In this document: positions 7,311 through 42,468 of the stretch, piece after piece | Layout of the letters: every line of letters starts with the position of its first letter | Position numbering within the stretch: position 1 is the first letter of the stretch | IMG/VR virus record: IMGVR_UViG_3300018079_000014 | Span: 1 to 50,318 of that record | DNA from: a virus | Reading direction: 5' to 3' (one strand) | Length of the DNA stretch: 50,318 bases | Position numbers and translations under genes: made by a program | The notes under the pieces: model-generated | The model's database searches: none | The model's input: the letters and a program-made list of their open reading frames with translations, nothing else | Told to the model about the DNA's origin: nothing

Positions 7311-7511
7311 ATGGGAAAAACAGCTTGTATGCGGTGCGGCGGAAGCCTCATCCCCGACCCCATGATTCGCCACTGGCGCATCTGCCCATTGTGCGATCCA
7401 GACCGAGCAACCTACATCGAGCGAGTCAACGCCTTCAACATGTTCCTGTCCTTGCGAGCAACCGCACAAGACCCGCGTGGCCGTCCAACCATCGAAGGCC
7501 GAAGACACTGA
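7311..7511 (+). CDS. Small zinc-ribbon protein
   Basis: The 66-residue protein has CMRCGGSL near the N-terminus and CPLCDPD about 20 residues later, i.e. two CxxC knuckles of a zinc ribbon, and then a helical tail. I choose ATG 7311 because an earlier in-frame ATG (7296) lies inside the promoter -10 box and could not be transcribed. The message is nearly leaderless. A 9-bp hairpin at 7521-7544 follows. Confidence 0.68.
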   Translation: MGKTACMRCGGSLIPDPMIRHWRICPLCDPDRATYIERVNAFNMFLSLRATAQDPRGRPTIEGRRH

Positions 7512-7520
7512 CCTAAAGAA

Positions 7521-7544
7521 GGGCCGGGATTGCAGTCCCGGCCC
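7521..7544 (+). terminator. GC hairpin, likely terminator or attenuator
   Basis: The stem GGGCCGGGA/TCCCGGCCC with loop TTGCAG has no T tract. It separates the zinc-ribbon gene from the methyltransferase-helicase gene. Its 5' half resembles the hairpin at 1384-1414 (GGGCCGGA followed by TTGC in the loop). Confidence 0.55.
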
Positions 7545-7578
7545 TAACTCCAACGCACCACCCCGGAGGCACCGAAGT

Positions 7579-10500: not shown

Positions 10501-11913
10501 CCGACCCTCGGCATGAACTGGAAGCTCGACTACGCCTGCACGCTTCCCGAGGCTGACCCGGACTTCGAGTGGACAGGCGTCGACGGCGTCTCCAACTTCA
10601 CCCCGGCAAACCTGCGGACGCTGGAGCTAACGCTCGCCCTCGTCAAGCAGGGCCGAAAGGTGCTTCTCGGCTCGAACCTGAAGGCGACATCGGCCTGGCT
10701 CGCCGACCGCCTGGTCGAGAAAGGCGTCAGGGCCGTCCACATCCTCGACGAGGACGGCAACACGATCGACGCCGACGAGAGAGCCAAACACGTCTACTCA
10801 TTCCAGACCGACGACGTCCAAGTCTTCTGCGCCGGTACAAAAGCAATCCGTCTCGGCCACAACCTCGACGCCGCGAGCGCCGTCATCCTGCACGGCCTCG
10901 ACTTCGACTACGAACTGCTCGACCAGTTCATCGCTCGCATCCACCGGCTAACCAGCAAAGAACCGGTCGACGTCTTCGTGATCCTCCCAACACTGGAAGA
11001 GCAGCAGACGATCACGACCCGGAAATGGGACTTGCTCGAAATGAAGGGCGGCTCGGCCGAGCTGGCGCTCGACGGGCGGCTGATCCTGAAGAACGAGCAG
11101 CAGATCAGCGAAGCCGAGATGATCCGCGACCTCATGGAGCGTGGCTTCAAGGTCACGTCCGAGGCGGTCGACGAGACAACGATGTTCGAGGCCTGGGAAG
11201 CGCTGGCCCCACTAGACGAATACGAAATCCGCGAAGGCGTCATCCCGGCCCGCCCGATGGGCGACGACCTAACGACCGAAGCAGGCAGGCTCGCCGCTGA
11301 GGCAATCGGCAACTTCCTGATCGCGGGCATGGCGGAGCCGCAGGAGGGCGACCAGCTCGACATCTTCACCACGCCCACCACCGTCCCTGACGAGTTTGTC
11401 CTCCAGACAAACGCCGACGAGCTGGACGCGATCGAGGCAGAGCTGGCCGAGGCCGAGCTAGCCGCGCTAGAGGCGATTCTGGCCGAGCCTGAGAATGTGA
11501 CACCTGATACTAGTGAAAGCGACCCCCCTCTCGCCACCTTCACGCCTTTCGCAGGCGACACCACTGGCCAGGAAGCCGCCGAGGCAATCGGCGCGTTCCT
11601 CACCGCCCTGGCCCCAAGGTCGGAGGCGACGGCCTCCGAGGACGAGGCAGATCAGCCGACGCAGCTCCCGCACCCGCAAGGGCCAGGAGAGCTGCCCGTT
11701 GCCGATCCCATCGTCCACGACGACGAACCGGAGCCGGAGAAGCTTCCGGCAGGATCAGCCGAGACACCCTCCGCTCCGGTCGTCGCCATCTCGCCGCTCT
11801 CGCAGCTTCGCGAGGCGAAAGAACTGCTCGACCTCGGCATCCTCGACGACAACGAGTACGCCGAGCTGAAAGCCGCACTCCTAAGCCAGGTAATGACCGG
11901 GGTGCCAGCGTGA
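7579..11913 (+). CDS. DNA adenine methyltransferase-helicase fusion with SHOCT tail (DarB-like)
   Basis: This protein of 1444 residues starts at ATG 7579 behind GGAGG. The N-terminal part is an N6-adenine methyltransferase: cofactor loop DPTAGDG near residue 62 and catalytic NPPF near 127. The middle is an SF2/SNF2-like helicase: Walker A EQGLGKT near 544, a DEIQ motif near 804, LGLTGTP near 833 and motif VI QFIARIHRL near 1116. A zinc-finger-like insertion (CPAC...C...C) sits at about 750-780. A long acidic linker leads to a C-terminal SHOCT-like helix pair (LSQLREAKELLDLGILDDNEY). Phage methyltransferase-helicase fusions such as P1 DarB protect DNA from restriction; a role in DNA modification, anti-restriction or replication remodelling is inferred. 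It overlaps the next gene by GTGA. Confidence 0.85.
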   Translation: MSVNQKGTALVDGAATDEVLASSDSILTKTMYGGKKGLQQFYSPPELARLVASVIGDRAVVLDPTAGDGMLLSELPMTLRYGIEIDKDQIKNSKEANRGYNALRGDVQHIYTLLRQTLPAWDAIVANPPFGLQWEDPSYRDGKATNSAVLTWVYSSRLLDDSGQLIFVCGRDRFYRQIEKLDENASTYAVIECDNLFDNVTIPCVVAFAIHAGIRSATSTGYETRAMPREMLDLAGDWVRGLRDKARDPYHSLARSGAYGHHRSEALTKIQTEYDRRLEGRVKANREYDAILVGGKAIQWMPSGFAQLALNTENDQYAFHGLNGQPVTYFAQNERLWVKMLSYADRGILTVDPKLIVAIEDVVGGIRRERIPLYHVKPTMRLGFLTDVEILKCIKDDPELSFKRGESYRLNTQTKTVIEREKRIVESKKNKGEYVKKEYEKQKKALAVTVGHHTFLDGGDEASKNIKWLIDHFELPDPGDVATRHPEEIARLETLVREVMDEFMVNSRKWEEDNPTAMPFSIRDFQVQDIARMLFKKTGLLSWEQGLGKTLGGIAFYRCAVKLGAQDALLIVTANDLIAQWCRECERFLGRQPTLVKTHGQARKIAHELRLGGSGLYITQYYTLSLTGTRGKNLILPPVTVREWQEPRKVKGTDRWGYYFWADRDGNEVAEEDAHEAGRLHLVAQYAEMERSIPEYGFGENQLHRAAVQSGAYIQEPSEYETPSGSRALHGHITYRETKITKKLTSRDLCPACEADLRNGWNGAFCERELPNGSKCGYSHHAVKMKPIASQLSTAFRNGVGIYDEIQMIQARCDGTDSKRSIALRGPKFGWFLGLTGTPIKNFIDQLFWPLWKPLGNATTRFPFDYTSGPIKFTSDFAVTEYQRNGGRRDNRKFLAEVTNLSMLWRLLASSIIRRRKEETGETIVAKYYNEIKVPIGMAQAEQIDAWLKGFPEFFKEKNPEHPVVKAGMHEILAPTLGMNWKLDYACTLPEADPDFEWTGVDGVSNFTPANLRTLELTLALVKQGRKVLLGSNLKATSAWLADRLVEKGVRAVHILDEDGNTIDADERAKHVYSFQTDDVQVFCAGTKAIRLGHNLDAASAVILHGLDFDYELLDQFIARIHRLTSKEPVDVFVILPTLEEQQTITTRKWDLLEMKGGSAELALDGRLILKNEQQISEAEMIRDLMERGFKVTSEAVDETTMFEAWEALAPLDEYEIREGVIPARPMGDDLTTEAGRLAAEAIGNFLIAGMAEPQEGDQLDIFTTPTTVPDEFVLQTNADELDAIEAELAEAELAALEAILAEPENVTPDTSESDPPLATFTPFAGDTTGQEAAEAIGAFLTALAPRSEATASEDEADQPTQLPHPQGPGELPVADPIVHDDEPEPEKLPAGSAETPSAPVVAISPLSQLREAKELLDLGILDDNEYAELKAALLSQVMTGVPA

Positions 11914-27450: not shown

Positions 27451-28437
27451 CTACGGAGCCGTCGCCGCCGCGTAGACGATCAGCGAGTTCTTCGCCAGAC
27501 CGCGCCTCGGCTGGAAGCCGAAGCTGTACGCGATGCCGATTTCGTTGCCGTAGTCGAAGTGGTCGCGCTCGACCCACGACGGGGCCTCGTCGACACCTTC
27601 GATGAACGCCTCGGCGCCGAAGAGGATGTTCCGCGAAACTGCGTTCGAGGAAGCACCATCGTTGGCGGTCGGAACGTTGTTGTGCTGGAAGAGCAGGACA
27701 CCATCGACCATAGCCAGGGCGCCACGGAAGAACGGGTTGTCCGGCCCCTTGCGCTCCGCCTCACGAACCCAGTCCCGGTACTCGTCCGACCGCTTCAGGT
27801 CGTAGAGCGTGTTCGGGTGGGCGACGAGGGCGTAGAAGTCCTCACCGTCCGAGGTCGTGAGCGGGATCGCCCGGTTGTTGTACATGGTGAGCTTCGCCTT
27901 CTGGATGCTCTCGACGTCGAGCTTGTCCGTCACAGCGATATCGCCAGGCACACCGGAGCCGCCGCCCACGGAGATGACGTTTGGAGTGTACGTCTCACCG
28001 TTGAGGACGGCCGTGGACACGAAGTTCGCAAAGCGAACGTCGTCCATCTTCTCCTGGCCCCACTCGCCCAGGCGCAGCCTCGCCTCTTCGCGAAGCCCCA
28101 GGAGGGACTTCTTGGCCGCGCGGCGATACCAGCGAACCGCGTGGCGGTAGAAGAGCGGGATGACCTTCATGGACGAGGTCGAAAGGTTCTCTTCCGAACC
28201 TTCCAGGGGCGTCACGTCGCCTGCCACTCCGGAACCGGAGAGCGGGTTGGTGACTTGGATGTGGATGGTGTCGCCGGGCTGGTTGACGAGGTCAGTGCGC
28301 TGAAGGATCGGAGAGCGGCTGCCCTCTGCCCCGGCGAACTTGCCCCAGAAACCGGCCCGCAGATGGTCGCGGAGGACAAGCTTGGCCCAGAGTTCCTGGA
28401 TCGAGCTGTCCACATGGGTCGGAGTCGTGACGGTCAT
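27451..28437 (-). CDS. Major capsid protein (N4-gp56 family)
   Basis: The 328-residue product has the N4-gp56-type layout. An N-terminal arm with ELWAKLVLRDHLRAGFWGKFAG is followed by GDTIHIQVTNPLSGSGVAGDVTPL with LEGSEENLSTSSMKVIPLFYRHAV, then helices RRAAKKSLLGLREEARLRLGEW and KLTMYNNRAIPL, the DEYRDWVREAERKGPDNPFFRG segment and a C-terminal beta domain (YSFGFQPRRGLAKNSLIVYAA). It builds the icosahedral shell. It directly follows the scaffold gene and precedes a strong hairpin. Confidence 0.9.
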   Translation of the reverse strand: MTVTTPTHVDSSIQELWAKLVLRDHLRAGFWGKFAGAEGSRSPILQRTDLVNQPGDTIHIQVTNPLSGSGVAGDVTPLEGSEENLSTSSMKVIPLFYRHAVRWYRRAAKKSLLGLREEARLRLGEWGQEKMDDVRFANFVSTAVLNGETYTPNVISVGGGSGVPGDIAVTDKLDVESIQKAKLTMYNNRAIPLTTSDGEDFYALVAHPNTLYDLKRSDEYRDWVREAERKGPDNPFFRGALAMVDGVLLFQHNNVPTANDGASSNAVSRNILFGAEAFIEGVDEAPSWVERDHFDYGNEIGIAYSFGFQPRRGLAKNSLIVYAAATAP

Positions 28438-29201: not shown

Positions 29202-32200
29202 CTACGCAGCAACAGGACGACGATCGCGGCGCGATTCGATCGTGTCCGGCTGGTACGTCTTCAACGCCTGCTCGCGCAGACGTCTGCGCATCGCCTCAGC
29301 GGCGCGGATCAAGTCCTCACCCGATTGGAAGTACGGACGCAGGCGTGGATCGGCCTGGTCGAAGGCGTCGTAGATTGCACCCTCGGCAGAGCGCTCGGCG
29401 CGGCGGCGCTCGAACCACGCGGCGACCTCGGGGTGCATGGCCAGGAACTCGTCGCGACTGGGGCCACTCGGGATTGAGAAGTACTGCTCCAGGAGATTGT
29501 GCATCGCCCGCTCGGCAGGAGAGCTGCGCAAGTCAAACCAGTCCTGTAGCTCGGGGTGATCGCGGAGGAACTGTGAGCGCGCGAACGAGTCAGGCGGAAG
29601 ATGGAAGTACTCCTCGACGATCGCGTCAAGCTTCGCGTTGCCGGTCACTTTCCGATCGCCGTACTTGTCCAGATACTCCTGAATCTCGGGGTTGGCGCGA
29701 GCGAAGAGGGCGCGTTCCTTCTCAGGCAGGGCGAAGTAGGTGTCGAGCAGCGGCTTGGCATAGAGGTAGGCGGCCTGCCGCTCGGAAGCGCCGAGGGCGA
29801 CGGCGCGGCGCAGGTACTCCTGCTCGCGGTCGTGGCGCTCTTCCTCGCCGAACTCGCCGTAGATGAAGACGCCGTAGTTCTCCGCCTCGGCAAGGACGAA
29901 GGCGGGCCGCTTGTCCGGAGAGAGCTTGAAGAAGAGACGCCAGAACTCCAGCCGCTTGCGCTGCTCCGGGGTGCCGCCGACGAGCTGTGGGTACTTGCGC
30001 AGGAAGGCCCGCTCGTACTGGTGCGTCTTGCCGTACTTCTTGAAGTAGTCGAGAACGCGGGCGGCACGGGGGTCGCTGGATTCGAGCCAGGCCGAGCGCT
30101 GGCCCTTCGGCAGCGAGAAGTAGTAGCTCAGGTCGCCCTTCGCAGCGAGGTAGTCATGGGCGTGCGCCGAGTGGCCACGCTTCGCGTACTTAGCGAAGAA
30201 GTCGAGGACGATCTTCGCACCCTCGCTATCACCGTGGAGCCAGGCGCCCCGCGCGGAGGGGGCCATATCGAAGTAGAGCTTGAGCCAGGACTTCGCCCGG
30301 AGGTAGTCGACCGACTTCTGCGAGTGCTTGCCCCACTTCTTCAGATAGCCCTTGATGCTCTGGGCGACCTTGCCGTCCGAGGCTTCGAGCCAGGCCCAGG
30401 CCTGCTTCTCGCCGACCCTCTTCATGTAGTCACGGAAGAACCAGTCGAGATGCGGCTTGACGGCGAGGTAGGCGTTGCGCCGCTCGGCGCTCCACTTGCC
30501 GCCCCGTCCCACCCCCGCCTTCCACTCGCCGGTCGCCTCGTCGACCTTACTTGCGGCCCTGGTGTCCTCAAACATGAAGCTAAAGGCCCTAAGTAGTGGG
30601 GCGCCCGCAGAGAAGCCGCCGCGCTTGACGAGACTGAAGTACTCCTCGCGCAAGGCGGCGTTGGCGCCGGAAAGCATGGCCTCCATATCGTCGGCCGGGT
30701 CGTTGTTGCGGTTCCAGTAGCGGACGAGTTCGGGATGCTCGTCGAGGAAGCCTTCCTTGGCCTCGTAGTCGTCGTCGGGCAACTCGTGGAACTGACTGTT
30801 CAGGTCGCCGTAGTACTCGAAGGCGGCGGCGCGGATCATGCTCTCCCGCACCTGCTTGGGCGTGTCGTTTGACTTCCAGTAGGCCTCCAGCTCGGGCGTC
30901 TTGAAGATGTCGAGCGCAGCCTGGCGAACGTCGTGGGCGGGGTCAATCGCCTCGACGACGCGAAGCGCCATCATGAACTTCTCCGTCTCGACGTAGCGCT
31001 GACTGTCGCGCAGCCACTTGGACGAGAAGGGGCGGCCCCGGTAGGTAGCGTCGACCCACCGGATCAACTCGGGATGCTCGCGCTTCATGCGCTGCTTCTC
31101 TTCCCACCCGTCCGAGCGATAGTAGGCCTCGATCAGAGGCAAGAGGTCGAGGTAGCTGTTGAAGGTCATCCTGTCCATCGGGCCGCTCGTCGACGAAGGG
31201 CGGAGCCTGAGCGAGAGGGCTTCACCCGACGTCAGCGCTTCGTAGTCCTTGCGGCCGGTCATCAGCTCGTCGGAGAGCTTCGAGAGCAAAATATCCTCCG
31301 GGGTGGCGCGGCGCAGATACATGCCAGTGAAATAGCCGAAAAGGTTCTGCGTCACGAACCAGTCCTCGATCGTCTGCTCGGCGGCCTTGCGGTTCGGCGT
31401 CTCCCCTCGGGCAACCTGGTTCGAGATTTCCTGCTGAACGAAGAACTCGAAGTTGGAGGAGATCTGATCGGAAGGGGTGTCACCCTGCATGAGGGTAAAG
31501 ATGCTTTCCCAGTTGGCGACCCGGCCCGCCCACCGTTCACCAAACCATTCGCGGGTGAGGGCGACGGCGGGGCCGGTCTGAGGAAACATCGCCTGCCAGG
31601 CGCGGTCGGTCGCGACATTCGTACTCTCCAAGAGCTTGCGACCGAACGGGCTGAAACCGAGGCCCCAATCGTTCACCGCGTCGAGCATCGGGCCGAAGAT
31701 CGCGTTCCCCTCGTCCTCGGGCCGCGTCGGCAGGGCGGGGTTCTCGCCATAGAAGGTCTTCTTGAAAGCGCGGTAGAAGGGGGCGAATGAGGACAGGTTC
31801 ATGGGGTCGTACATAACGTCGGACGGGAGCAGCGCGGCAACGACCTTGTCCAGGCCGGGGATGAAAGCGACGGAGTCTGTGACCTCGTCGACGTGCATGT
31901 AACGGCGCATCCACTGGGGAAGGTCGGCGTGCGCATCCTGGCGGGCCTGGTCAAGCTGAAGGACGGCGTTGGTGAGCCAGGGCTTCTGCGCGAACGACTT
32001 GACCCAGAAGGCGCTGTTTTTGCGCCAGAACTGGATGAAGGGGAAGAAGATGCGCAGGTTGTCCTCGACGACGGTGATCTTCGAGTAGTCGAAAAGCGTG
32101 TCCTCAATCTTTGCCCAGGCCTCATCGTGGGCGGCGAGCCGCAGGCCAATCTCGTCCAACTCTTCGATGGCCTCGCTAACAACACGCGGCTCGTAGAGGG

Positions 32201-35200
32201 CGCGGATCGCAGCGTCGACCAACTCAGACACAGGCTCCTCTGAGATAGCGGTCTGGCCAAGCAGACCGCCATTGATGCGAGCGACGGCGCCGTCCTCGAA
32301 GACGATCGTGGCCTGATTCCACTCGGCGACCTCGGGACGCAGGGCCTTCAACTCGGAGTGGTGCTGACCGGGCTGACCGACAACGACGCGGCCGTCCACG
32401 TCGTACCAGGCGGGCGCATAGCGATCGAGCGGGCGCTTCTTTAGACGGGCCTCGGTCGGCACCAGCCGTTCGGCCTCCTCAGTGCGAGTCACGGCCCCGG
32501 CGACCAGGTGGTCGCCGTCGCGGAGCATCCGGGCATAAGACTTGAGGTGGGTATCCCGGTAGATGACGCGCTTGAAGTAGTTCTCCGGGCGGGCGGCGAG
32601 CAAGTCCCACGCCCCCTCGCGGAACTTCTTGACACGGGCAGCAGTAGCCTCGACCGACTCGCGGGGCAGGCGCTTCAAGCCCATCTCGGCGGCGAGCTTC
32701 TTGTCGTAGCGGGGGCGTCCGGCGCGAACCGCCTTCTGCTCAAACGGGTTGAAAACAGCGGAGTCGAGCAGACTGTCGGGGATGTCTTCGAGGCCGTGGG
32801 CGTTGAAGACCTTGCGCAAGACGTCGGCGCCCATTTCCCAGATGCGGCGCTCAATCTCCATCCAGTGATCAAGGCCGGTGGTGCCGAAGAGCTGATCCAT
32901 CCAACCGATCGCCTCGCGGACGTCGCGCAGCCCGAAGTCAAAGACGGAGCGGATGGCACCATTGCCGGGACTGCGCCCGCCGAGGAAGAGCATCCGGGGA
33001 TCGTGGACTCCAGCAATGATCGTCTTGGCGAGGTTGTCGACGATGTTGCGAAAGGCCCAACCGGGGCGAAGCGGGAGGGTCGCGAAAATCCAGAGATTGA
33101 GAGCGCCACTGAGGCCGAGGTAGGCGACCTTCAGCGGCTTGCTCTGGGCGTGGGCGAGAGCCTGCCAGACGGCCGTTTCAGAAATCAGCTCATGGGAGAT
33201 CGTCTCGTCGTAGGCGCGAGCGAGGGCAAACTGCCGCTTGGTCAGGGCCTCGCGGTAGAGCGCGTCCTCTTCCAGGTGGCTGCCCTGCTTGGTAGCGAGG
33301 CTCCAGAGATCATCATCGAAGGCGCCGCCAGCCACGAAGCCGGGCGGCTTAGCGAGGTCGGAGAGAGGAACGCGCTTCGCACCGTCCTCGACACGACGCC
33401 GGGCGATGCCGCCGATGTGGCGAGCGTAGAGGTCGGAGACTTCGATCGTCTCGCGGGTGTCGTACCAAAGACCGCCCGTCTTCTCCCAGGACTCGACGAC
33501 GTCGTCGTACTCCTTGACGAGCAGACGATCGAGGTCGAAGTCATCGGAGAGTGTCCCAGCGGCGCGGTTGCGGGCAACGTAGCTATAGAGCCTGCCACTC
33601 CGGCGGGCGACCTCAGACTCGATCATCTCGGTTGCCTCATCCCAAGTGAAGCCGATCCCCGCCTGCGGGTTGCGGATCGTCTGCGTCTTGCCTTCCTCGA
33701 AGCTCTCACGGCCGAGGCGAACGAGCATCTTGGCGGTCGTTCCACTCCGGCCGCGCCACAGCCCGCCTTCGTCCCAGAGCGGGTGGATGGCCTCAACAGC
33801 GTCATCCCCCGCCTTCCGGGCGGCCACACTGCCGTCGAGTGCAGCGTCGGCCTGGCGCTCTAGAATGTTCTGAATGTCGGGGAAGATGCTGGTGTCCAGC
33901 TCGGCCATGCGGTCGGCCACGCGGCGCTCGATCATCAGCCGCAGCTTCTTGTCTGCGGCTCCGGCCTTCAGGTAGACACCCGCCCCCTCAACGATGCGGT
34001 CGTACTCGGAATCGGCGGCCTCGCGAGCCGCGTCGATGGCGTCGTCACCGAGGGTTTCCAGCGTAGTCTCGTAGACCTCGCGGTAGTAGTCACGAGCGAT
34101 CTCGTACACGCTGAGAACGCGGTAGCGCTCGGCCAGGTTGGCCCGCAGCGCTGCGCCAACCTGGCTCGGCTGGCCACGACCGGCGTCGACGTAGAGAGAA
34201 GCCCTATCAGCGATCAGGTCGTCGATCGTGGCCGCCCATTCCCGGCCAACGCTCCCCATCATCTCCCGCCGAGCCTCTTCGAGCAAGCGCCTGGTCGTAG
34301 CGTTGCGGGGCAGGCGAACCTCGACGTGGGCGGCGAACTTGGAGACGGGCTTCATGAAGCCGTGCCTTGCCTGGCGCGTCGTCCGCTCGCGGGCAGAGGC
34401 CAGCGCTTCCTCTTTGAGCTGCGTCGACTTGCGGGCCAGTTCCCTCGCTCCGGCCGCGCTATCGTGGCGGGCAAAGCCGAAAGTGGCCCGCTCGGCGACG
34501 GCGGCCTTGCTCCAGGTTCCACGACCGTAAACGATTCCGCCCACCACGTTGGCCCTCTTCGCCCGAAGGATCAGATTGTCGGCGCCGAGGATGCCCTTCT
34601 CCCGCAGCGAGTAGGAGCCGAGCGTGCTGCCCTTCGTGCCGTAGCGGAGCAGGGAAGAGGCGGCGCGGAACGGGTGAGCGAAGTTGATCGGGTCGGCGGT
34701 CAGCTCGAAGGCGAGCCGAAGCCAGCGGTTCGCGGCCTTGTCCACCAGGCCGTCGTAGAAAGGGAGCGTGTCGGGGTCGGCGCCGAGCGTGACGGCGGCG
34801 TCCTCCCACTGGACGGCGCGTTCGTCGTCGCCGAGGACGAGCTGGGTCGCTCGCATCGCGTCATAGACGAACGCGGTACGCATGTTGCGGCCGAGGTCGA
34901 GGGCGTTCTCGACAGCGCTGCCCCACCAGGGAAGCGAGCGCCCGGCCAGTTCGGACTGGTAGCGGTGAAACTTCTGCTCTTCCAGAGCCATGTAGGCGCC
35001 GAGCCGCTGCTTGAAGTCGTCCTCGTTCTTCGAGCGGGCAAGGGCCATGACCTCAGCGCGGAGGGCGCCGACACGCTTGACGTTCTCCGCCTGGACGGAC
35101 TGACTGCCGGAGCGCATCCGCTGGTAGATGGCCTGCTGCTCGGGGGAGAGCTTGCTGACGTCGACGGTCGGGGCCAGGTCTGTCTGGCCGAGGATTTCGG

Positions 35201-36281
35201 CAAGGAGCCGAAGGTCACTCGGGGCGCCGCCGCGCACCTTCGCGAATAGGGGGTTGTCGAACGGGTTGAAGCTGCCGGTAGCCCGGAGGGTGGCGGCGAG
35301 CTTCATGAGTTCCTGGCGGCGGATCGCGGCGAAAGCAGCGTCCCCCGTGGTGGACTGCTTCAGGAGCGTGTTGAGCATGAGCGAAGCCTCGAAGCCGCCC
35401 TTCTGCAACATCTCCGAGAGCCTCGCGGCGGTCGGAATCGGCTCGTCGAACGTCCACCAATACGGCTTCTGACCAGCCTCGACGCCGAGCGGGCCGTAAA
35501 GCTTGTCGCGGACGGTGCTGATGCGGCGGCGCTTCGCCTGGCGAACCTCGCGGCGCATCGCGCCTTCCATCGCGTCGTGCGTCTGCTTGTCGTACTTGCC
35601 GGTGACGCGAACCTTCCAGCCGTGCGCGGCAGCCCAGGTCTGGAAGATGCGGGCGCCCGCCGACGTCCGCAGGCCGAGCTTGCCCTCGGGGTTGAGAACG
35701 ACCTCGGCAACCTCATGGAACTTGAACTCCGCCGAACGGCGCGGCGCAGCAGAGAGAAGCTTTGAGCGCTCGACGATCTTCGCCCGGTAGGCGACATCGC
35801 GGCGGAGGGCTTCCTTGCGGGCCTGCTCGGCCTGATAGCGCTTCTCGGCGCGAATCTGCTCGGGCGACTGGCCGCCGTAGGGAATGTTCTGCTTCCCGGC
35901 CTGACCCTCGAACTTCAGGGGGCCGAAGGCGCCAGGGTTCTTCCGCCGCTTCGCCATGTAGTCGTTCCAGGCGGACTGCGAGCGCGGCCCCCAGATGCCA
36001 TCGACAACGAGGCCGTAGCCGAGGGAGGCGAGAAGGCGCTGACGGCGAAGCGTCTCGCTCTGCCGCGCGGCCGTCGCCCGCTTCCCCTCCGGAGCCTGCG
36101 AGCGAACCGCCTCGTCGATCGGGTTGCCGACCTGATAGACTCGGCCGGTCTGCGGGTCGAGCGTGACGGAACCGGGGAGCGGCCTGCCGCCGCCGCCGGG
36201 CTGACGGCTCCGGCGACCCTGCTGCTGCTTCGGCTTGGGCTTCGGCTTCGGTCGCCGGTCGTGGGCGTCAGGCCCCGCCAC
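29202..36281 (-). CDS. Giant internal/ejection protein with helical repeats
   Basis: At 2359 residues this is the largest gene of the genome. A basic, glycine-rich start (KPKPKPKQQQGRRSR) is followed by a peptidoglycan-binding-like segment (LASLGYGLVVDGIWGPRSQSAWNDY) near residues 85-110 and a second VRVTGKYDKQTHDAMEGAM. The middle is long, helical and charged. The C-terminal 420 residues hold at least seven helical repeats with the core YFxLPxxxRxxWLxxxDPxxxxxLxYFKKYGK. It lies between portal and scaffold. I infer an internal virion protein ejected with the DNA, forming or lubricating a channel and degrading or binding the wall. No RNA polymerase or lysozyme motif is visible. GTG 36281, three bases after the portal stop. 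Confidence 0.75.
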   Translation of the reverse strand: MAGPDAHDRRPKPKPKPKQQQGRRSRQPGGGGRPLPGSVTLDPQTGRVYQVGNPIDEAVRSQAPEGKRATAARQSETLRRQRLLASLGYGLVVDGIWGPRSQSAWNDYMAKRRKNPGAFGPLKFEGQAGKQNIPYGGQSPEQIRAEKRYQAEQARKEALRRDVAYRAKIVERSKLLSAAPRRSAEFKFHEVAEVVLNPEGKLGLRTSAGARIFQTWAAAHGWKVRVTGKYDKQTHDAMEGAMRREVRQAKRRRISTVRDKLYGPLGVEAGQKPYWWTFDEPIPTAARLSEMLQKGGFEASLMLNTLLKQSTTGDAAFAAIRRQELMKLAATLRATGSFNPFDNPLFAKVRGGAPSDLRLLAEILGQTDLAPTVDVSKLSPEQQAIYQRMRSGSQSVQAENVKRVGALRAEVMALARSKNEDDFKQRLGAYMALEEQKFHRYQSELAGRSLPWWGSAVENALDLGRNMRTAFVYDAMRATQLVLGDDERAVQWEDAAVTLGADPDTLPFYDGLVDKAANRWLRLAFELTADPINFAHPFRAASSLLRYGTKGSTLGSYSLREKGILGADNLILRAKRANVVGGIVYGRGTWSKAAVAERATFGFARHDSAAGARELARKSTQLKEEALASARERTTRQARHGFMKPVSKFAAHVEVRLPRNATTRRLLEEARREMMGSVGREWAATIDDLIADRASLYVDAGRGQPSQVGAALRANLAERYRVLSVYEIARDYYREVYETTLETLGDDAIDAAREAADSEYDRIVEGAGVYLKAGAADKKLRLMIERRVADRMAELDTSIFPDIQNILERQADAALDGSVAARKAGDDAVEAIHPLWDEGGLWRGRSGTTAKMLVRLGRESFEEGKTQTIRNPQAGIGFTWDEATEMIESEVARRSGRLYSYVARNRAAGTLSDDFDLDRLLVKEYDDVVESWEKTGGLWYDTRETIEVSDLYARHIGGIARRRVEDGAKRVPLSDLAKPPGFVAGGAFDDDLWSLATKQGSHLEEDALYREALTKRQFALARAYDETISHELISETAVWQALAHAQSKPLKVAYLGLSGALNLWIFATLPLRPGWAFRNIVDNLAKTIIAGVHDPRMLFLGGRSPGNGAIRSVFDFGLRDVREAIGWMDQLFGTTGLDHWMEIERRIWEMGADVLRKVFNAHGLEDIPDSLLDSAVFNPFEQKAVRAGRPRYDKKLAAEMGLKRLPRESVEATAARVKKFREGAWDLLAARPENYFKRVIYRDTHLKSYARMLRDGDHLVAGAVTRTEEAERLVPTEARLKKRPLDRYAPAWYDVDGRVVVGQPGQHHSELKALRPEVAEWNQATIVFEDGAVARINGGLLGQTAISEEPVSELVDAAIRALYEPRVVSEAIEELDEIGLRLAAHDEAWAKIEDTLFDYSKITVVEDNLRIFFPFIQFWRKNSAFWVKSFAQKPWLTNAVLQLDQARQDAHADLPQWMRRYMHVDEVTDSVAFIPGLDKVVAALLPSDVMYDPMNLSSFAPFYRAFKKTFYGENPALPTRPEDEGNAIFGPMLDAVNDWGLGFSPFGRKLLESTNVATDRAWQAMFPQTGPAVALTREWFGERWAGRVANWESIFTLMQGDTPSDQISSNFEFFVQQEISNQVARGETPNRKAAEQTIEDWFVTQNLFGYFTGMYLRRATPEDILLSKLSDELMTGRKDYEALTSGEALSLRLRPSSTSGPMDRMTFNSYLDLLPLIEAYYRSDGWEEKQRMKREHPELIRWVDATYRGRPFSSKWLRDSQRYVETEKFMMALRVVEAIDPAHDVRQAALDIFKTPELEAYWKSNDTPKQVRESMIRAAAFEYYGDLNSQFHELPDDDYEAKEGFLDEHPELVRYWNRNNDPADDMEAMLSGANAALREEYFSLVKRGGFSAGAPLLRAFSFMFEDTRAASKVDEATGEWKAGVGRGGKWSAERRNAYLAVKPHLDWFFRDYMKRVGEKQAWAWLEASDGKVAQSIKGYLKKWGKHSQKSVDYLRAKSWLKLYFDMAPSARGAWLHGDSEGAKIVLDFFAKYAKRGHSAHAHDYLAAKGDLSYYFSLPKGQRSAWLESSDPRAARVLDYFKKYGKTHQYERAFLRKYPQLVGGTPEQRKRLEFWRLFFKLSPDKRPAFVLAEAENYGVFIYGEFGEEERHDREQEYLRRAVALGASERQAAYLYAKPLLDTYFALPEKERALFARANPEIQEYLDKYGDRKVTGNAKLDAIVEEYFHLPPDSFARSQFLRDHPELQDWFDLRSSPAERAMHNLLEQYFSIPSGPSRDEFLAMHPEVAAWFERRRAERSAEGAIYDAFDQADPRLRPYFQSGEDLIRAAEAMRRRLREQALKTYQPDTIESRRDRRPVAA
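29460..30460 (-). repeat. Degenerate helical repeats in the ejection protein
   Basis: Repeated units of roughly 45-65 residues share a Y-F-x-L/M-P/A start, an arginine, W-L or F-L, a D/H-P pair and a final Y/F-x-K-Y-G-K. Clear copies include LYFDMAPSARGAWLHGD, YYFSLPKGQRSAWLESSDP, TYFALPEKERALFARANP, EYFHLPPDSFARSQFLRDHP and QYFSIPSGPSRDEFLAMHP. Confidence 0.8.
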
Positions 36282-36284
36282 GAC

Positions 36285-38138
36285 CTACGCTCCGCCGTAA
36301 GGATCGCCCACGCTGCTCGGGCCGAGGGCCGACGCTCCAGCGTCCGCGTCGAGGGCGCCGGACTGTCCGCCACCGCCGAGTCCGCTCATCGTCTCCATCG
36401 CGCCGCTGAGTGCGCCCTGGCTATCGGCCGGTGCGCCGCCGCCCGTCCCCTGCGCGTTACCTCGGAACTGCGCCATTAGGAGGCTGACGAGGCCCTGATT
36501 GACCCAAGGGAAGCGCTCCGATTCCTTCTCGATCCGGCGCATTTCGTCCTCAGGAGCCTGGACGCCCAGATTCTCCAGCGTCGTCTCTAGCGACTGCGCC
36601 CCCTGCCCGAACTTGTTCAGCTCGCTCATCACATAGGAGGGGTCGTCTGGGTCGACCCGGTTGCGCCAGGCGAACCGGACGTAGTAATCGCCGTCGAGCA
36701 AGTCCTTCGGCGTGCGCGGGTACTCGATCGTCTGGGGAAAGCCGCTCCCCCCGTCGATCTCCTGCTCCAAGGCGGCCTCGTCCGGGCCGAGGAGGAGCGT
36801 GAAGGCGTGACCGGGGCCGCTGAGCTTGCCGCTCGGGCGGGAGCCTCGGTAGCGGACGCTCGTCACGGTCTTCTGCTCGACCATCTGGAGTGCCATGCCG
36901 TAGAGACGGCTGAGTCCGGCCATCCAGTTCTTCTGCTTCATGGCCGTGTACTCCAAGAGCGGCTGGAGCTGAAGGCCACGATCGGTGCCGGAGCCTGAGC
37001 CGGGCAGGCCCCACGCGGCATCCGGGGCGAAACCGAGCATCTTGTAGAAGTCCATCGCCCGCTCCGAGTGCGTCTCGTGAAACTGCGGCATATCGGGCGG
37101 CTGGATCGGCTCGACCTTGCCGTCGCGCTTCGACGGCAGAACGCCGCCCTCGCGGGCGACCTTGGCGACCGTGTGCGGGTTGGCGCCAGTTCCGCTCTCG
37201 ATCACGCCGCCGTTGGCGACGGAGCGAAGGACGTCGGCCTCGCGGGAGAAGAGGGCGGGCAGGTAGGCGACCAGGTGACGAACGAACTCGTAGTCGGCCC
37301 ATCCCCAGACATCGCGGTACGGCCCGATGTTCGGGATGACGACGTAGGGAACGAAGCCGTAGTTGTGTTCGACTTCGTAGAGGCCGACGACCTGCTCGGC
37401 CTTGTCGCCTGCGGCAAAGCGAATCGCCCGGCCCTTGTCGCAAAGCGAGATAATCCTGACCCACTCGCCGTCCCCGTCCTTGCGATACGGAGCAATCTCG
37501 TCGACACGGACGGGCTGGCCCCGGAAGGACAGGTCGCGGTACATCGCCTGGACAGCGGCGAGCGGCGCGTCCCAGGTGCGGTAGACGCGCTGAAAATCAT
37601 GCGGGTCGTCGACGCCCTGAACTTCGACGATGCCGGTCGGGTCGATCGCGCGGACGAGAGGCATCTGCTTGTCAACGTCGAAGTAGACGTCGAAGCAGGA
37701 GGAGCCAAGTTCAGAGCCGTCCCAGGCCGCGTCGGTGAAGGTCGTCTCACCACCGCTCGCGCGGATGATCGCCCAGACGACCTTCTCGATCGTGTCTGAG
37801 CGGTAGCGCTCCTGCGGCGTCTCGTCGCGCTGGTCGCAGAAGACGTCGGGGAGCTGCCCCGCGATCCGGTAGGCGTGCTTGACGGTGAGAGCCTTGCCGA
37901 GCGGAAGGGCGATGTGCTGGCGCGTCGGCTCATCGACCCGGTTGCGCGACTTCCGGCCGTAGTCGTCGTTGTCGCGGAAGTGCTGCTCGGATGCCGGACT
38001 GCGCACGCCGTTGTTCTCCGCTCGGTAGGCGTTCATGCGACTGACCCGCTCGTTTGCGGCCGAGAGCAGATTCAGATACTCGGCGTGGAGATCAATCAGC
38101 TCGCGCCGAGTCGGGTCGCTGCGATCGAAGATCGACAC
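36285..38138 (-). CDS. Portal protein
   Basis: The 617-residue product has portal features: N-terminal helices (RRELIDLHAEYLNLLSAANERVSRM), LPLGKALTVKHAYRIAGQLPDV, the wing domain with DPTGIVEVQGVDDPHDFQRVYR, and YLPALFSREADVLRSVANGGVI leading into the stem and crown. The tail is Gly/Ala-rich. It forms the ring through which DNA enters and leaves. It lies between terminase and ejection protein, as usual. GTG 38138 sits exactly 6 bases after TAGGAT, so translation is probably leaderless. Confidence 0.88.
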   Translation of the reverse strand: MSIFDRSDPTRRELIDLHAEYLNLLSAANERVSRMNAYRAENNGVRSPASEQHFRDNDDYGRKSRNRVDEPTRQHIALPLGKALTVKHAYRIAGQLPDVFCDQRDETPQERYRSDTIEKVVWAIIRASGGETTFTDAAWDGSELGSSCFDVYFDVDKQMPLVRAIDPTGIVEVQGVDDPHDFQRVYRTWDAPLAAVQAMYRDLSFRGQPVRVDEIAPYRKDGDGEWVRIISLCDKGRAIRFAAGDKAEQVVGLYEVEHNYGFVPYVVIPNIGPYRDVWGWADYEFVRHLVAYLPALFSREADVLRSVANGGVIESGTGANPHTVAKVAREGGVLPSKRDGKVEPIQPPDMPQFHETHSERAMDFYKMLGFAPDAAWGLPGSGSGTDRGLQLQPLLEYTAMKQKNWMAGLSRLYGMALQMVEQKTVTSVRYRGSRPSGKLSGPGHAFTLLLGPDEAALEQEIDGGSGFPQTIEYPRTPKDLLDGDYYVRFAWRNRVDPDDPSYVMSELNKFGQGAQSLETTLENLGVQAPEDEMRRIEKESERFPWVNQGLVSLLMAQFRGNAQGTGGGAPADSQGALSGAMETMSGLGGGGQSGALDADAGASALGPSSVGDPYGGA

Positions 38139-38175: not shown

Positions 38176-39153
38176 CTACTGTCCGTGGATCGAACCGATG
38201 AGCGCGGGCTGCGGCACGTCCTCCAAGCCCTGCCAGGCAGCGAGGGCGAGGGCCATAACGCAGTCGGTCATCAGCCCCTTGTCGTCCCAGGCGTAGAACG
38301 ACAGCTCCTCTTCGAGCTGCGCGATCGGCGGCGAGCGCAGCCAACCGAAGGGTTCGTCGGAACCCTGAAGATAGCCGACCTGGAGCGTGTTGCGCAGATG
38401 CTCCATAAGATTCTTCTTCGACTTGGTCTGGAACTCGAAGCCATCGACGCAGCCAAGGTTGGCATATAGCGGCGAACCCTCCTCGTCGAGCAACCCGCAA
38501 CCACCCAGGGCATTTCCACGACGGTCGCGACAAACACCGCCACCATCCTCGTCCTCTTTCTGAAGCGTACGATCATGGATCGGGCAGTAGTACCGGCTCT
38601 CCAAGTTCTCGAAGATGACGTCGCCACCCATGCCCGTCGAGTCAGCGAGGATAGACGGCCCCCACATATGCGCGGCCCGACCGCACTCACGATAGATCGA
38701 CTCCCACGGGACGCGGTTGAGACGGCGGAAGTAGACAACCCGTGCGGGCCGTGTTGACACATCGAGAGTGAAGAGGACGGTGTAGTCGGTCTGCCGAGCG
38801 AAGTCGACACCAGTGGCGTAGCGCTGCCTCTTCGAGTCGATGGGCAGCGTGCGGGCGTAAGAGCGGGCGTACTTGTCATGCCAGCGGTCGCCGGTCACGC
38901 GGAAGTCCGTGTCCCACTGATCGGCGAAGTGGGACGCCGCTCGGTCGATCAACATTTGGATCGTCTCGCCGGGGAAGACGAGGCCGGACGACTCGACGTA
39001 CTTGCCGAAGATCACCTGAGCCGCCATCTCGGCGGGCAGCTCCAAGAGCATCGAGACGATCTCGTCGTGCGGGACGCCGTAGGGGTTCTCGAACATGCTC
39101 CCCGTCTGGACGTAGTACTCGGCCCGCTTCGGAATCAGGGAAAGGTCAGGCAT
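38176..39153 (-). CDS. terL: Terminase large subunit, nuclease half
   Basis: The 325-residue product carries only the linker and nuclease parts of TerL. MFENPYGVPHDEIVSMLLELP and AAQVIFGKYVESSGLVF are the usual segment between ATPase and nuclease. GVDFARQTDYTVLF (catalytic Asp117), LADSTGMGGD (Asp171) and DDKGLMTDCVMALALA (Asp297) form the RNase-H-like metal site that cuts concatemers. An insertion with four cysteines (190, 208, 219, 235) may bind zinc. The ATPase half is a separate gene at 39450-40307, with a zinc-finger gene between. It starts at ATG 39153 (ATG 39156 also possible), overlapping the zinc-finger gene by 8 bases. Confidence 0.85.
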   Translation of the reverse strand: MPDLSLIPKRAEYYVQTGSMFENPYGVPHDEIVSMLLELPAEMAAQVIFGKYVESSGLVFPGETIQMLIDRAASHFADQWDTDFRVTGDRWHDKYARSYARTLPIDSKRQRYATGVDFARQTDYTVLFTLDVSTRPARVVYFRRLNRVPWESIYRECGRAAHMWGPSILADSTGMGGDVIFENLESRYYCPIHDRTLQKEDEDGGGVCRDRRGNALGGCGLLDEEGSPLYANLGCVDGFEFQTKSKKNLMEHLRNTLQVGYLQGSDEPFGWLRSPPIAQLEEELSFYAWDDKGLMTDCVMALALAAWQGLEDVPQPALIGSIHGQ

Positions 39154-39460
39154 CATTCTCGCACTCCAGGAGGAAGTCGTCAGGGCCACGCAGGCTCGCG
39201 AGCATATTGGCCGCTCGCTTCTCCTCGCGCTCACGCCAGCGGTCGTGTCGCTCATTCATCAGGAGCGCCTGCCAGCCATGAACGAAGTCCTCACCCTCGA
39301 ACGCATCCTCTTCGTCGTGTTGGTTCTTTATGTGCGCCCGCATGGACGAGGCAAAGCTACTGCCCATGCACGTACCGCAGTAGCAACAGTAGAAGCTTTC
39401 AGTTGAAACGGCGTCCCTCGACAGGCCGAGGACGCGGCGGGGTTCCGGGTCAAAGCGCAT
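39146..39460 (-). CDS. C2H2 zinc-finger protein inside the terminase cluster
   Basis: The 104-residue product from ATG 39460 has a classical finger: Cys28-x2-Cys31-x11-His43-x4-His48 in CYCGTCMGSSFASSMRAHIKNQH-type spacing, with two further cysteines just before it. The remainder is helical and charged (DRWREREEKRAANMLASL). It overlaps the ATPase gene by 11 bases and the nuclease gene by 8, so all three are translated together. It may be the bridge between the two terminase halves or an intruding gene; the finger could bind DNA at the packaging site. Confidence 0.75.
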   Translation of the reverse strand: MRFDPEPRRVLGLSRDAVSTESFYCCYCGTCMGSSFASSMRAHIKNQHDEEDAFEGEDFVHGWQALLMNERHDRWREREEKRAANMLASLRGPDDFLLECENDA

Positions 39461-40307
39461 CCTGAATCCCCCGCTCCAGCGCGTCCCGGTACTCGTCGAG
39501 GTTGATCCCAAACTCCTTCAGGTACTTCTTCATCGCGGCCTCGATCCCCTTGACGCTAGTCGCCGTCTCGGTCGTCTCGTCGCCGTCGTCGGACGTGTGG
39601 GCGAAGTCGATCCGCGCCCCCGTGTACGCAGAAGCGCGAACGCAGATTTGGTAGAAATCGCGGCTAATCCCTGGCTTGAAGGTGCCGACGATGTCGATGA
39701 TCCCCCGGACGTCGGCGATGCGGACGCGGAGAACGTTCCGCATCATCTCGGAGAGCGAGTCGATCCATCCCGCCTCGTCGATCGAGAGGTAGTAGATGCT
39801 CTTGCCGTCCACACCAGAAGCATTCACACCGAGCGTGCGGAACAGCCACTTCCAGCCCTGAATCCCCCGGATGTACGGCGGCTTCGACTTGGGCTGCGCA
39901 GAAACAAACGCCTGGATGCGCGGCTGCTCGGCAATCAGCTTGCGGGCGTCCTCCCAGACATAGGAGGCCTGCTCCCATTCGCCCGCCGTGTGAACCGTCT
40001 CGTACTTCAGGCCGGTGAAGACGTCGAGGTCAATCGTGCCATCCTCGTTCATGTAACGCCACTCGGCGCCAATCTTGTAGATGCCGCGATGGAAGTGGCG
40101 ACAAGCGAGAACGGTCGTCTTACCGAAACGGTTCGCACAGGCGAGAGCATTCACCTTCGCCTCCGCCCTCATCATCCATTCAGCCTGACCATCATGCAGG
40201 GTGCGGCCAAGGAAGAACTGGCAGAAGAAGGCAGGGTCGGAACGGCCCCGTGCGAAAGCATCGAGAAGCTGGTCGGACTGCGCGGCCTTGCCGGTGCCGA
40301 CGTGCAT
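39450..40307 (-). CDS. terL: Terminase large subunit, ATPase half
   Basis: The 285-residue product carries the packaging ATPase. It has a variant Walker A ACANRFGKTT at 56-65, Walker B YYLSIDEAG (Asp177, Glu178) and coupling motif IVGTFKPG at 206-213. After this the chain ends with DFAHTSDDGDETTETATSV and a helical tail instead of continuing into the nuclease domain, which is a separate gene. No stop-codon readthrough or single frameshift joins them directly, because a third gene lies between. ATG 40307 overlaps the preceding TAA (TAATG). Confidence 0.88.
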   Translation of the reverse strand: MHVGTGKAAQSDQLLDAFARGRSDPAFFCQFFLGRTLHDGQAEWMMRAEAKVNALACANRFGKTTVLACRHFHRGIYKIGAEWRYMNEDGTIDLDVFTGLKYETVHTAGEWEQASYVWEDARKLIAEQPRIQAFVSAQPKSKPPYIRGIQGWKWLFRTLGVNASGVDGKSIYYLSIDEAGWIDSLSEMMRNVLRVRIADVRGIIDIVGTFKPGISRDFYQICVRASAYTGARIDFAHTSDDGDETTETATSVKGIEAAMKKYLKEFGINLDEYRDALERGIQDAL

Positions 40308-40829: not shown

Positions 40830-40921
40830 CGACGGCCTCGCTTCCAACGGCCGAGGACGAACCACAGCCTCGGGCCAAGCCAGAGCTTGAGATACCAGCC
40901 GTCCTGGTCGCGGACGATCAT
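40826..40921 (-). CDS. Micro protein, tryptophan-rich
   Basis: The 31-residue product (MIVRDQDGWYLKLWLGPRLW then FVLGRWKRGRR) starts at ATG 40921 on the TGA of the nuclease-like gene and ends on the ATG of the next gene, so it has 4-base overlaps on both sides. It is amphipathic and strongly basic with four tryptophans. The two exact overlaps argue for translation. Confidence 0.5.
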   Translation of the reverse strand: MIVRDQDGWYLKLWLGPRLWFVLGRWKRGRR

Positions 40922-41403
40922 GCCGGAAGCTCCAGCGTGTCGAGCGGGCGCAACCTGTCCTGCGTCACCCAGTATGCGCCACGATCCTTATGTACTTTCC
41001 AGAGCTTCTTGACCTTGCCCTCGCGGGCATAAATCCACCCGCGCACGTTGAAGACGCCATACTCCCCCGTGACGAGAATGAACACATGATCGTCGTCATC
41101 CGAGTCGTGAATCAGAAGTGACCCGGACGTGTAACGAGTCGAGCGCACTTGCAACCCCGGCCCGATGTCCCCGAACTTGGAGTCCTGCTCGCTCACGGTC
41201 GGATTGAAGGGGAGAAGGCCGAGCGCCTTCGCCGCGACATACTCCGCGTGCATCCCCTCGACGTCGATCCGGTAACGATCCTGTGGGTTGCGCTGAAAGC
41301 CGTGAGCGCCACCCCGGCGCTTTTCCAACGCGGACGAGAGCCGGGCGAGGCCGAGCTGGCCGTACTCCACGAACTCCTCAGGGGTGAGGGCAATGCGCGT
41401 CAC
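40918..41403 (-). CDS. Predicted PD-(D/E)XK-type nuclease of the packaging region
   Basis: The 161-residue product from GTG 41403 contains GMHAEYVAAKALGL (acidic helix), SKFGDIGPGLQVRSTRYTSG (acid followed by a Q-V-R strand), DSDDDDHVFILVTGEYGVFNVRGWIYARE and AYWVTQDRLRPLDTL. This matches a widespread family of small phage proteins near terminase genes that resemble restriction-endonuclease folds. The catalytic lysine is replaced by Arg in QVR. AAGGAG precedes the start. It may help DNA processing during packaging or be a relic of a mobile endonuclease. Confidence 0.6.
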   Translation of the reverse strand: MTRIALTPEEFVEYGQLGLARLSSALEKRRGGAHGFQRNPQDRYRIDVEGMHAEYVAAKALGLLPFNPTVSEQDSKFGDIGPGLQVRSTRYTSGSLLIHDSDDDDHVFILVTGEYGVFNVRGWIYAREGKVKKLWKVHKDRGAYWVTQDRLRPLDTLELPA

Positions 41404-41573
41404 GCCGACTCCTTGAACCCGGCCTGTACCGTGACGATCAAGAGGTCGAGTAGGCACTCGACGCGGCGCTCTAGCTTCCAGCGGCGATACCAGCTCCACC
41501 AGGGGAGGCCTTCGAGCCGATCGGTCAGACCGCAAATCCGCTCTTCCAGCCCATGCTCGAAGCAGCCGGTCAC
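41400..41573 (-). CDS. Small hypothetical protein
   Basis: The 57-residue product (MTGCFEHGLEERICGLTDRL, then LPWWSWYRRWKLERRVECLL) is helical, with three cysteines and a tryptophan-rich basic centre. GTG 41573 overlaps the stop of the GIY-YIG-like gene and its stop overlaps the next GTG. The open frame is exact between two overlaps, so I accept it despite its size. Confidence 0.55.
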   Translation of the reverse strand: MTGCFEHGLEERICGLTDRLEGLPWWSWYRRWKLERRVECLLDLLIVTVQAGFKESA

Positions 41574-41887
41574 ACCGCCACCGCCCTAAGAGACGGAGTT
41601 GCGCACTCAGGGAAAGAGACGAATGAAGGGTCGGCCTTGACCCACTCGACCATCTCCCACTCAGCGCAATACCACTCCCCATGAATGTGAGCGGGATGAA
41701 GGCGCTGATACTCCTTCCTGAAAAAGGAATCCCAACCGCTCGGAGCGAGATACGTGCCGACCACGACAACCCCCGGATGGGCCACAGCCTGCACGTGAGC
41801 GCGACCGTAAGGCCCCCGCCCAAACTTGACGATAGGCAGGCCGTCCCAATCCCAACCGGCAAGCAGGTAGCAGCGCTCGGAGTTCAC
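41570..41887 (-). CDS. GIY-YIG/T5orf172-like protein
   Basis: The 105-residue product has CYLLAGWDWDGLPIVKFGRGP in the place of the GIY...YIG motif, with VKFGRG matching the common VKIG variant. It then has RAHVQAVAHPGVVVVGTYLAP, the acidic WDSFFRKEYQRLHP and HGEWYCAEWEMVEWV, where GEW is typical of the T5orf172/Mug113 branch. Members are single-domain nucleases, sometimes homing enzymes. Activity is uncertain because the first motif is diverged. It lies in the packaging cluster close to the split terminase. Confidence 0.6.
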   Translation of the reverse strand: MNSERCYLLAGWDWDGLPIVKFGRGPYGRAHVQAVAHPGVVVVGTYLAPSGWDSFFRKEYQRLHPAHIHGEWYCAEWEMVEWVKADPSFVSFPECATPSLRAVAV

Positions 41888-42468
41888 GCTCCGACCTCGC
41901 TGTACTCGGCGTCCACAACGGGCAGCTCGCCGACGACGTCGGCCTCGCCAATCGACTTAGCCCCGCCGCCGATGTGACGCTGGATGCCGCCGGTCAGCAT
42001 CCGAATCAGCTCGTCCTGCGTCTCCGAGTGCTGGCGCCGCGTCTTCTCGGCAGCGACCTTCATCATCAAGTCGGGCGTGATGCCGGGGTCTTCGCCCCTG
42101 GCGATCCGCGACTCCAACCGCGCCATGCCCATCGCCCAGATGCGGTCGAGGTCGGTGTTGACGTCGACCTCGAACTCGCCCCGGAGAATCTGGATCATCC
42201 GCTCGTACGCGGCGTCCTGCTCGGCCTCGACGGCCTCGGAAGTGGTGACGCGACAGTGAAGCTTCCAGTGGCCCTTGACGTTCTCCTCCGTGAGGTTCAC
42301 GACACCCCACTCTTCGACCAACTTCTTGACGTAGGCGAAGTTGATCCGGTTGCCCTGCTCGTCCATCTCGCGCTTCGACCGACGCTCTAGCAGCGCGTCG
42401 ATGTCAGATCGCCGAGCGGACTTACAGAGCTTGCAGAGGGTCGCGCTCTTTGTCGCAAGAACAGCCAC
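41884..42468 (-). CDS. Probable terminase small subunit
   Basis: The 194-residue product starts at GTG 42468. The N-terminal CKLCKSARRSDIDALLERRSKRE with a CxxC, then FAYVKKLVEEWGV, looks like a helix-turn-helix/zinc DNA-recognition part. A long helical middle (DAAYERMIQILRGEFEVDVNTDLDRIWAMGMARLESRIA) suits oligomerisation and the C-terminal part contacts TerL. Order (first of the packaging genes) and size fit TerS, which picks the packaging site. Its promoter overlaps a perfect GTAGGCT-A-AGCCTAC dyad. Confidence 0.65.
   Translation of the reverse strand: MAVLATKSATLCKLCKSARRSDIDALLERRSKREMDEQGNRINFAYVKKLVEEWGVVNLTEENVKGHWKLHCRVTTSEAVEAEQDAAYERMIQILRGEFEVDVNTDLDRIWAMGMARLESRIARGEDPGITPDLMMKVAAEKTRRQHSETQDELIRMLTGGIQRHIGGGAKSIGEADVVGELPVVDAEYSEVGA

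Follow-up and report, generated by a model that had tools for sequence, protein, structure and literature searches.

A phage large terminase encoded by two genes, divided inside its ATPase domain, with a C2H2 zinc-finger gene in the gap

The window analysed here is the whole of IMG/VR record IMGVR_UViG_3300018079_000014, a metagenomic contig of 50,318 bases, and the locus of interest encodes its large terminase (TerL), an enzyme that is normally a single chain. As read from the sequence, three genes on the minus strand follow one another in the order ATPase, zinc finger, nuclease, and neighbours overlap by 11 nt at both junctions. The first-pass annotation had given the overlaps as 8–11 bases; overlap on both sides was borne out, with the length corrected to 11 nt for each junction of the window. 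The features referred to below are listed here.

39450..40307, minus strand: TerL chain 1 (ATPase), 285 aa; ACANRFGKTT, LSIDEAGW and IVGTFKPG read directly
39146..39460, minus strand: C2H2 zinc-finger gene, 104 aa; a finger, a helical middle and a conserved C-terminal G-x-D-D-F-L-x-E
38176..39156, minus strand: TerL chain 2 (nuclease), 326 aa, with its ATG at 39156; GVDFARQTD, LADSTGMGGD and MTDCVMAL
39450..39460, minus strand: ATPase stop and zinc-finger start overlapping by 11 nt, ATGCGCTTTGA, from the sequence
39146..39156, minus strand: zinc-finger stop and nuclease start overlapping by 11 nt, ATGATGCCTGA, GGAG lying upstream, from the sequence
38455..38589 (approximate), minus strand: C-x2-H...C...C insertion in the nuclease domain, from alignments
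41884..42468, minus strand: candidate small terminase or DNA-binding gene (CKLC...H...H), upstream; function inferred from position only
36285-38138: portal gene, directly downstream of the nuclease gene (PHROG portal, E 1e-8)
27451-28437: major capsid gene (E 1.6e-38)

Because portal and major capsid genes lie nearby, the locus was taken to be the packaging region, and its place beside the portal and head genes is that of a TerL. The ATPase and zinc-finger genes would be translationally coupled through their overlap. Homologues of the candidate small terminase gene stand at the same position in four of the related contigs described below (L001, L004, L005 and L011), and a family search with this gene gave no match. 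Between it and the ATPase gene, a nuclease-like gene was found in every split-TerL phage examined (window 40918-41887; L004:5977-6504; L011:7270-7701), and these neighbours differ in kind, being PD-(D/E)XK-like, possibly GIY-YIG or, in L011, HNH_3. The PD-(D/E)XK-like neighbour was recognised by eye in the window, L001 and L003–L005, with a weak Pfam match in L004. On the other side of the portal gene, a 2359-aa gene (window 29202-36281) starts with a peptidoglycan-binding-like domain and encodes a putative very large virion or internal protein; its beginning also follows the portal gene in L003 and L005. Elsewhere in the window (7477-11913), a 1478-aa gene carries DNA-methyltransferase-like and helicase-like regions on one chain.

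Relatives were sought among 2.9 million viral contigs (IMG/VR). The order ATPase, zinc finger, nuclease was found in the window and four other contigs, at 49–72% identity; for the nuclease, identity to the window was 65–67% in L001 and L003, 53% in L004 and 49% in L005. These five contigs and the motifs they carry agree with the initial description of a large terminase split into ATPase and nuclease genes with a C2H2 gene between. A sixth contig, L011, is split likewise (ATPase 54% and nuclease 52% identical to the window), with the ATPase stop and nuclease start overlapping as TGATG; a zinc-finger gene was neither present between its TerL chains nor detected elsewhere in its 48.7 kb. The split TerL is thus known in six members, all of them uncultured phages, and five of the six have the zinc-finger gene in the cut. 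Overlaps between the ATPase and finger genes measure 11, 8, 11, 11 and 1 nt in the five genomes, and those between finger and nuclease genes 11, 8, 1 and 4 nt, the two genes being apart in L004, where a gene for a predicted 40-aa single-pass membrane protein (L004:7883-8005) lies between them and overlaps both. Start codons fall within the overlaps in every genome.

Every split member retains intact catalytic motifs. NRxGKT, SIDEAG and GTFKPG, the ATPase motifs of a TerL, occur in all six, and the acidic motifs of an RNase-H-like nuclease are kept as G-[VI]-D-[FL]-A-R, D-[SA]-[TS]-G and T-D. The two activities are encoded by separate genes in each of the six, so this is a split variant of TerL and not a standard member. 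A close relative with one intact TerL and no zinc-finger gene was looked for and none was found, fused TerL appearing only at about 32–35% identity. Searches of isolated phages gave weak TerL matches at best for either chain and no relative of the portal or finger protein, and bacterial and archaeal genomes yielded no relative. In Pfam neither TerL chain rose above threshold; among PHROGs the ATPase matched phrog_9 TerL faintly, and chain 2 matched Thermus phage TerL by tblastn.

The position of the cut was read from a sister group with fused TerL of about 515 aa (L012–L035; about 32–35% identity, PHROG TerL E 6e-32). When aligned with hhalign to the fused TerL profile, chain 1 covered columns 14–207 (E 4e-36) and chain 2 columns 213–481 (E 2e-36). 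Between them the two chains account for virtually the whole of a TerL, only about 6 columns of the fused profile being left uncovered at the junction. At the cut the fused proteins have ...GTPKGYNDLYFYYERGQRGTPG / YYSQRGSIYDNPYLP...; chain 2 starts ...EYYVQTGSMFENPYGVP; the N-terminal ATPase portion of chain 2 is EYYVQTGSMFENPYG...ESSGLVF, after which the RNase-H-like nuclease follows. In the TerL of Thermus phage P74-26 the counterpart of the cut lies just before FESFHAASW, at residue 214, whereas the crystallised ATPase domain comprises residues 1–257 and nuclease constructs begin at 256. On these alignments the cut precedes the end of the ATPase domain by about 40 residues; it comes after the coupling motif and its helix and ahead of the last ATPase strand, and the "nuclease" chain therefore opens with the final part of the ATPase domain. 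In T4 gp17 and P74-26 the residues after this site close the core sheet and contribute to the lid subdomain. The first-pass annotation had placed the ATPase motifs in one gene and the nuclease acids in another, which holds for the motifs, but by hhalign and by comparison with P74-26 the cut does not fall at the boundary between ATPase and nuclease.

Two further pieces accompany the split. The ATPase has a C-terminal tail of about 45–50 aa, and the nuclease an insertion starting C-x2-H, in all six split members, both being absent from the fused relatives. Since L011 has both and no finger gene, tail and insertion belong to the split itself; that the tail has a docking role is a guess. The insertion had been described as a four-cysteine one; the insertion is real, but only its C-x2-H is invariant among the six, the later cysteines varying.

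The gene in the gap encodes a C2H2 zinc-finger protein, as proposed for it at 104 residues. The classical pattern C-x2-4-C-x12-H-x3-5-H fits exactly in four relatives, and the window has C-x2-C-x14-H-x4-H. When all reading frames of at least 85 aa in the window and five related loci were scanned (n = 649), six held a classical C2H2 pattern, and five of these were the finger gene; shuffled versions fitted the pattern in 0.02–0.9% of trials. The pattern is not a matter of chance. Third-codon GC of the finger gene is 0.68–0.89 in the five genomes, raised like that of its neighbours. The four relatives' proteins are 25–32% identical to the window's, as against about 50–73% for the neighbouring genes, and they keep the two cysteines, the two histidines and a C-terminal G-x-[DES]-D-[FI]-[LV]-x-E; the L005 version has two fingers. 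From its sequence, the protein is best read as fast-evolving yet constrained. Family, structure and isolated-phage searches found nothing specific that it resembled beyond C2H2 fingers, with Pfam zf-C2H2_12 below cut-off (20.8 of 27.3 bits) and a very weak similarity to an HNH PHROG (E 0.02). The split can exist without the finger, as L011 shows, and a split TerL presumably works in the absence of the finger protein. On gain of the finger in the five against loss in L011, the tree gave support of 69/38, with a p-AU of 0.355 for the alternative. Directly upstream of its ATPase gene, L011 has a small cysteine-rich gene (CVHC...CGCGC; L011:7686-7928).

For structure prediction, the three products were given to AlphaFold as one 709-residue chain, with TGAC entered as D and the zinc-finger rows left out of the alignment. 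The model had a mean pLDDT of 60.6, with values below 50 at residues 229–354, 368–416 and 423–471; its ATPase and nuclease cores are usable, with low confidence at the junction and in the tail and finger. The model of a fused relative was likewise weak at the junction. By Foldseek, the best PDB matches of the model were T4 gp17 (E 1e-9), P74-26 and HK97 TerL and the G20c nuclease, its ATPase core matching T4 gp17 and P74-26 TerL. The G20c and P74-26 nuclease structures also match the fused relatives.

Compared with canonical TerL (T4 gp17, P74-26/G20c and the fused L012–L035), the split members have the same ASCE ATPase motifs, coupling motif and RNase-H-like acids in the same order. They differ from the one-chain enzyme in being encoded by two genes, in the cut inside the ATPase domain, in the ATPase tail and the nuclease insertion, and in the zinc-finger gene in the gap. 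The large terminase of phage lambda, gpA, has a zinc ribbon (CPHC at 240, CEHNAC at 274) directly after its coupling motif (212), so that a zinc module sits just past that motif, at the site of the cut here. This is a comparison by position and not of sequence kinship, the gpA ribbon being of four-cysteine type within a continuous chain and the C2H2 protein a separate one. With the gpA ribbon at the same place, the site would seem to tolerate, and perhaps to favour, a zinc module. In the herpesvirus terminase, zinc fingers are carried by a separate subunit (pUL28/pUL33) that contacts both TerL domains (PMC9611059). The pUL15–pUL28–pUL33 complex thus has its zinc fingers on a separate protein, as here, but its TerL (pUL15) is one chain where here there are two. 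The likenesses to lambda gpA and to herpesvirus are analogies rather than kinship.

Interrupted TerL genes were also compared. Parabacteroides phage phiPDS1 (MN929097) has TerL in two CDS, for which its authors suspect assembly or recoding (PMC10773633). Both CDS are annotated as large terminase, but they are broken in the region of the first nuclease motif, no gene separates them and the frame is open across the gap; phiPDS1 was therefore set aside as a precedent, its break being of a different kind. Two annotated genes were also touched by a match in Meiothermus MMP17 and in Thermus TSP4, but TerL proved ordinary in both, with an opposite-strand overlap. In limited searches of open-access papers, no described split of TerL within the ATPase domain, and no zinc-finger gene in such a gap, was found.

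The reading we favour, with a probability of roughly 0.7, is a two-chain TerL made from overlapping, coupled genes and rejoined non-covalently, with the C2H2 protein as a likely accessory. Two polypeptides of the large terminase would be translated from overlapping, translationally coupled genes; chain 1 would comprise the P-loop core through the coupling motif and a new tail of about 45–50 residues, and in chain 2 the RNase-H-like nuclease would be preceded by the last strand and closing ~40 residues of the ATPase domain. The EYYVQTGSMFENP strand of chain 2 would complete the sheet of chain 1. As neither chain has the whole ATPase domain, we infer that the two must associate for TerL to work, and the assembled enzyme would package and cut DNA like any other TerL. 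For the C2H2 protein, a role as an accessory factor in packaging is most likely; its finger and conserved C-terminal peptide would bind either DNA or the motor.

The finger gene could instead be a hitchhiker, settled in the coupled junction of an already split TerL and with a role unrelated to packaging, which we hold to be a serious contender at somewhat below even odds. The split of L011 without a finger gene is consistent with this, as are the further small membrane-protein gene at the same junction in L004 and the poor conservation of the finger protein, which is as expected for a loosely attached or hitchhiking gene. Against a mere passenger, the gene holds its exact place in five genomes while the nuclease has diverged to about 50%, its C2H2 spacing and C-terminal motif are kept, and the overlaps tie its translation to that of both motor genes.

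A three-component TerL, with an ATPase assembled in trans and the C2H2 protein docked at the cut, where it would regulate or stabilise how ATP hydrolysis, DNA grip and cutting are coupled, is a tentative and rather unlikely proposal; the C2H2 protein would then be a trans-acting counterpart of the in-chain ribbon of lambda gpA. Slightly less probable still is the three-subunit motor proposed in the first-pass annotation, in which the finger protein is a physical bridge from the ATPase chain to the nuclease chain. Its position, its coupling and the conserved C-terminal motif are compatible with such a bridge, as are the zinc fingers of pUL28/pUL33 in a subunit touching both TerL domains (PMC9611059) and the gpA ribbon at the same site. 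The finger is, however, unplaced in the one-chain AlphaFold model, where the junction is of low confidence, and the 48.7-kb L011 contig, split and lacking the finger gene, shows that a bridge is not generally required, which told against the proposal.

An old homing event, also raised at the outset, would have a homing endonuclease gene inserted in terL begin the split, with the zinc-finger gene as its remnant or replacement. The nuclease-like genes close upstream in each phage agree with this, as does the faint similarity of the finger protein to the HNH PHROG, and there are precedents for interrupted terL coding sequences in the group I introns of the Jug phages (PMC12363816) and the inteins of cyanophage Mic1 TerL (PMC7156551). 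In those phages, however, splicing restores one chain, whereas no sign of an intron or intein was seen here. The gap is without an intron or homing endonuclease in all six members; Rfam intron families matched neither the window stretch nor the five relatives, and the gap consists of overlapping coding sequence in several frames, unlike a group I or II intron or an intein. The finger fits the classical C2H2 spacing and not HNH, and no HNH or GIY-YIG catalytic motif is present in the five aligned finger proteins, so that the gap gene is not a recognisable homing endonuclease. A homing origin thus found no direct support and we regard it as improbable. HNH partners of packaging motors are known, and the nuclease-like neighbours may serve packaging rather than being left over from homing.

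Joining of the chains by programmed +1 frameshifting at the TGA-C stops has very little to recommend it. Reading TGAC as one step does give an open 709-residue chain across both junctions of the window, where both stops are TGA-C and the ATPase end, CTT-TGA-C (39449-39455), is the core of the bacterial RF2 site. TGAC is not kept in the relatives, though, each genome has start codons within its overlaps, and in L004 a fourth gene intervenes; the relative frames are not constant among genomes, and thus programmed frameshifting is unlikely and the identity to the RF2 site probably chance. Sequencing or assembly error, conceivable for a single metagenomic contig, is excluded by the same split at 49–70% identity in independent contigs from other samples.

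Taken as a two-chain TerL, this family would be a natural variant of a well-studied machine, divided inside the ATPase domain and with a zinc-finger accessory that is optional. Engineered mutants have been used to study how the lid, the last strand of the ATPase and the nuclease of TerL communicate during packaging, which is still an open question, and the division seen here suggests that the chain need not be covalently continuous from the coupling motif to the lid segment. The split family would serve as a natural two-plasmid system, in which the parts can be changed, titrated or omitted, with L011, which has no zinc finger, as a built-in comparison. Because Pfam places neither chain above threshold, searches and trees based on TerL miss such phages.
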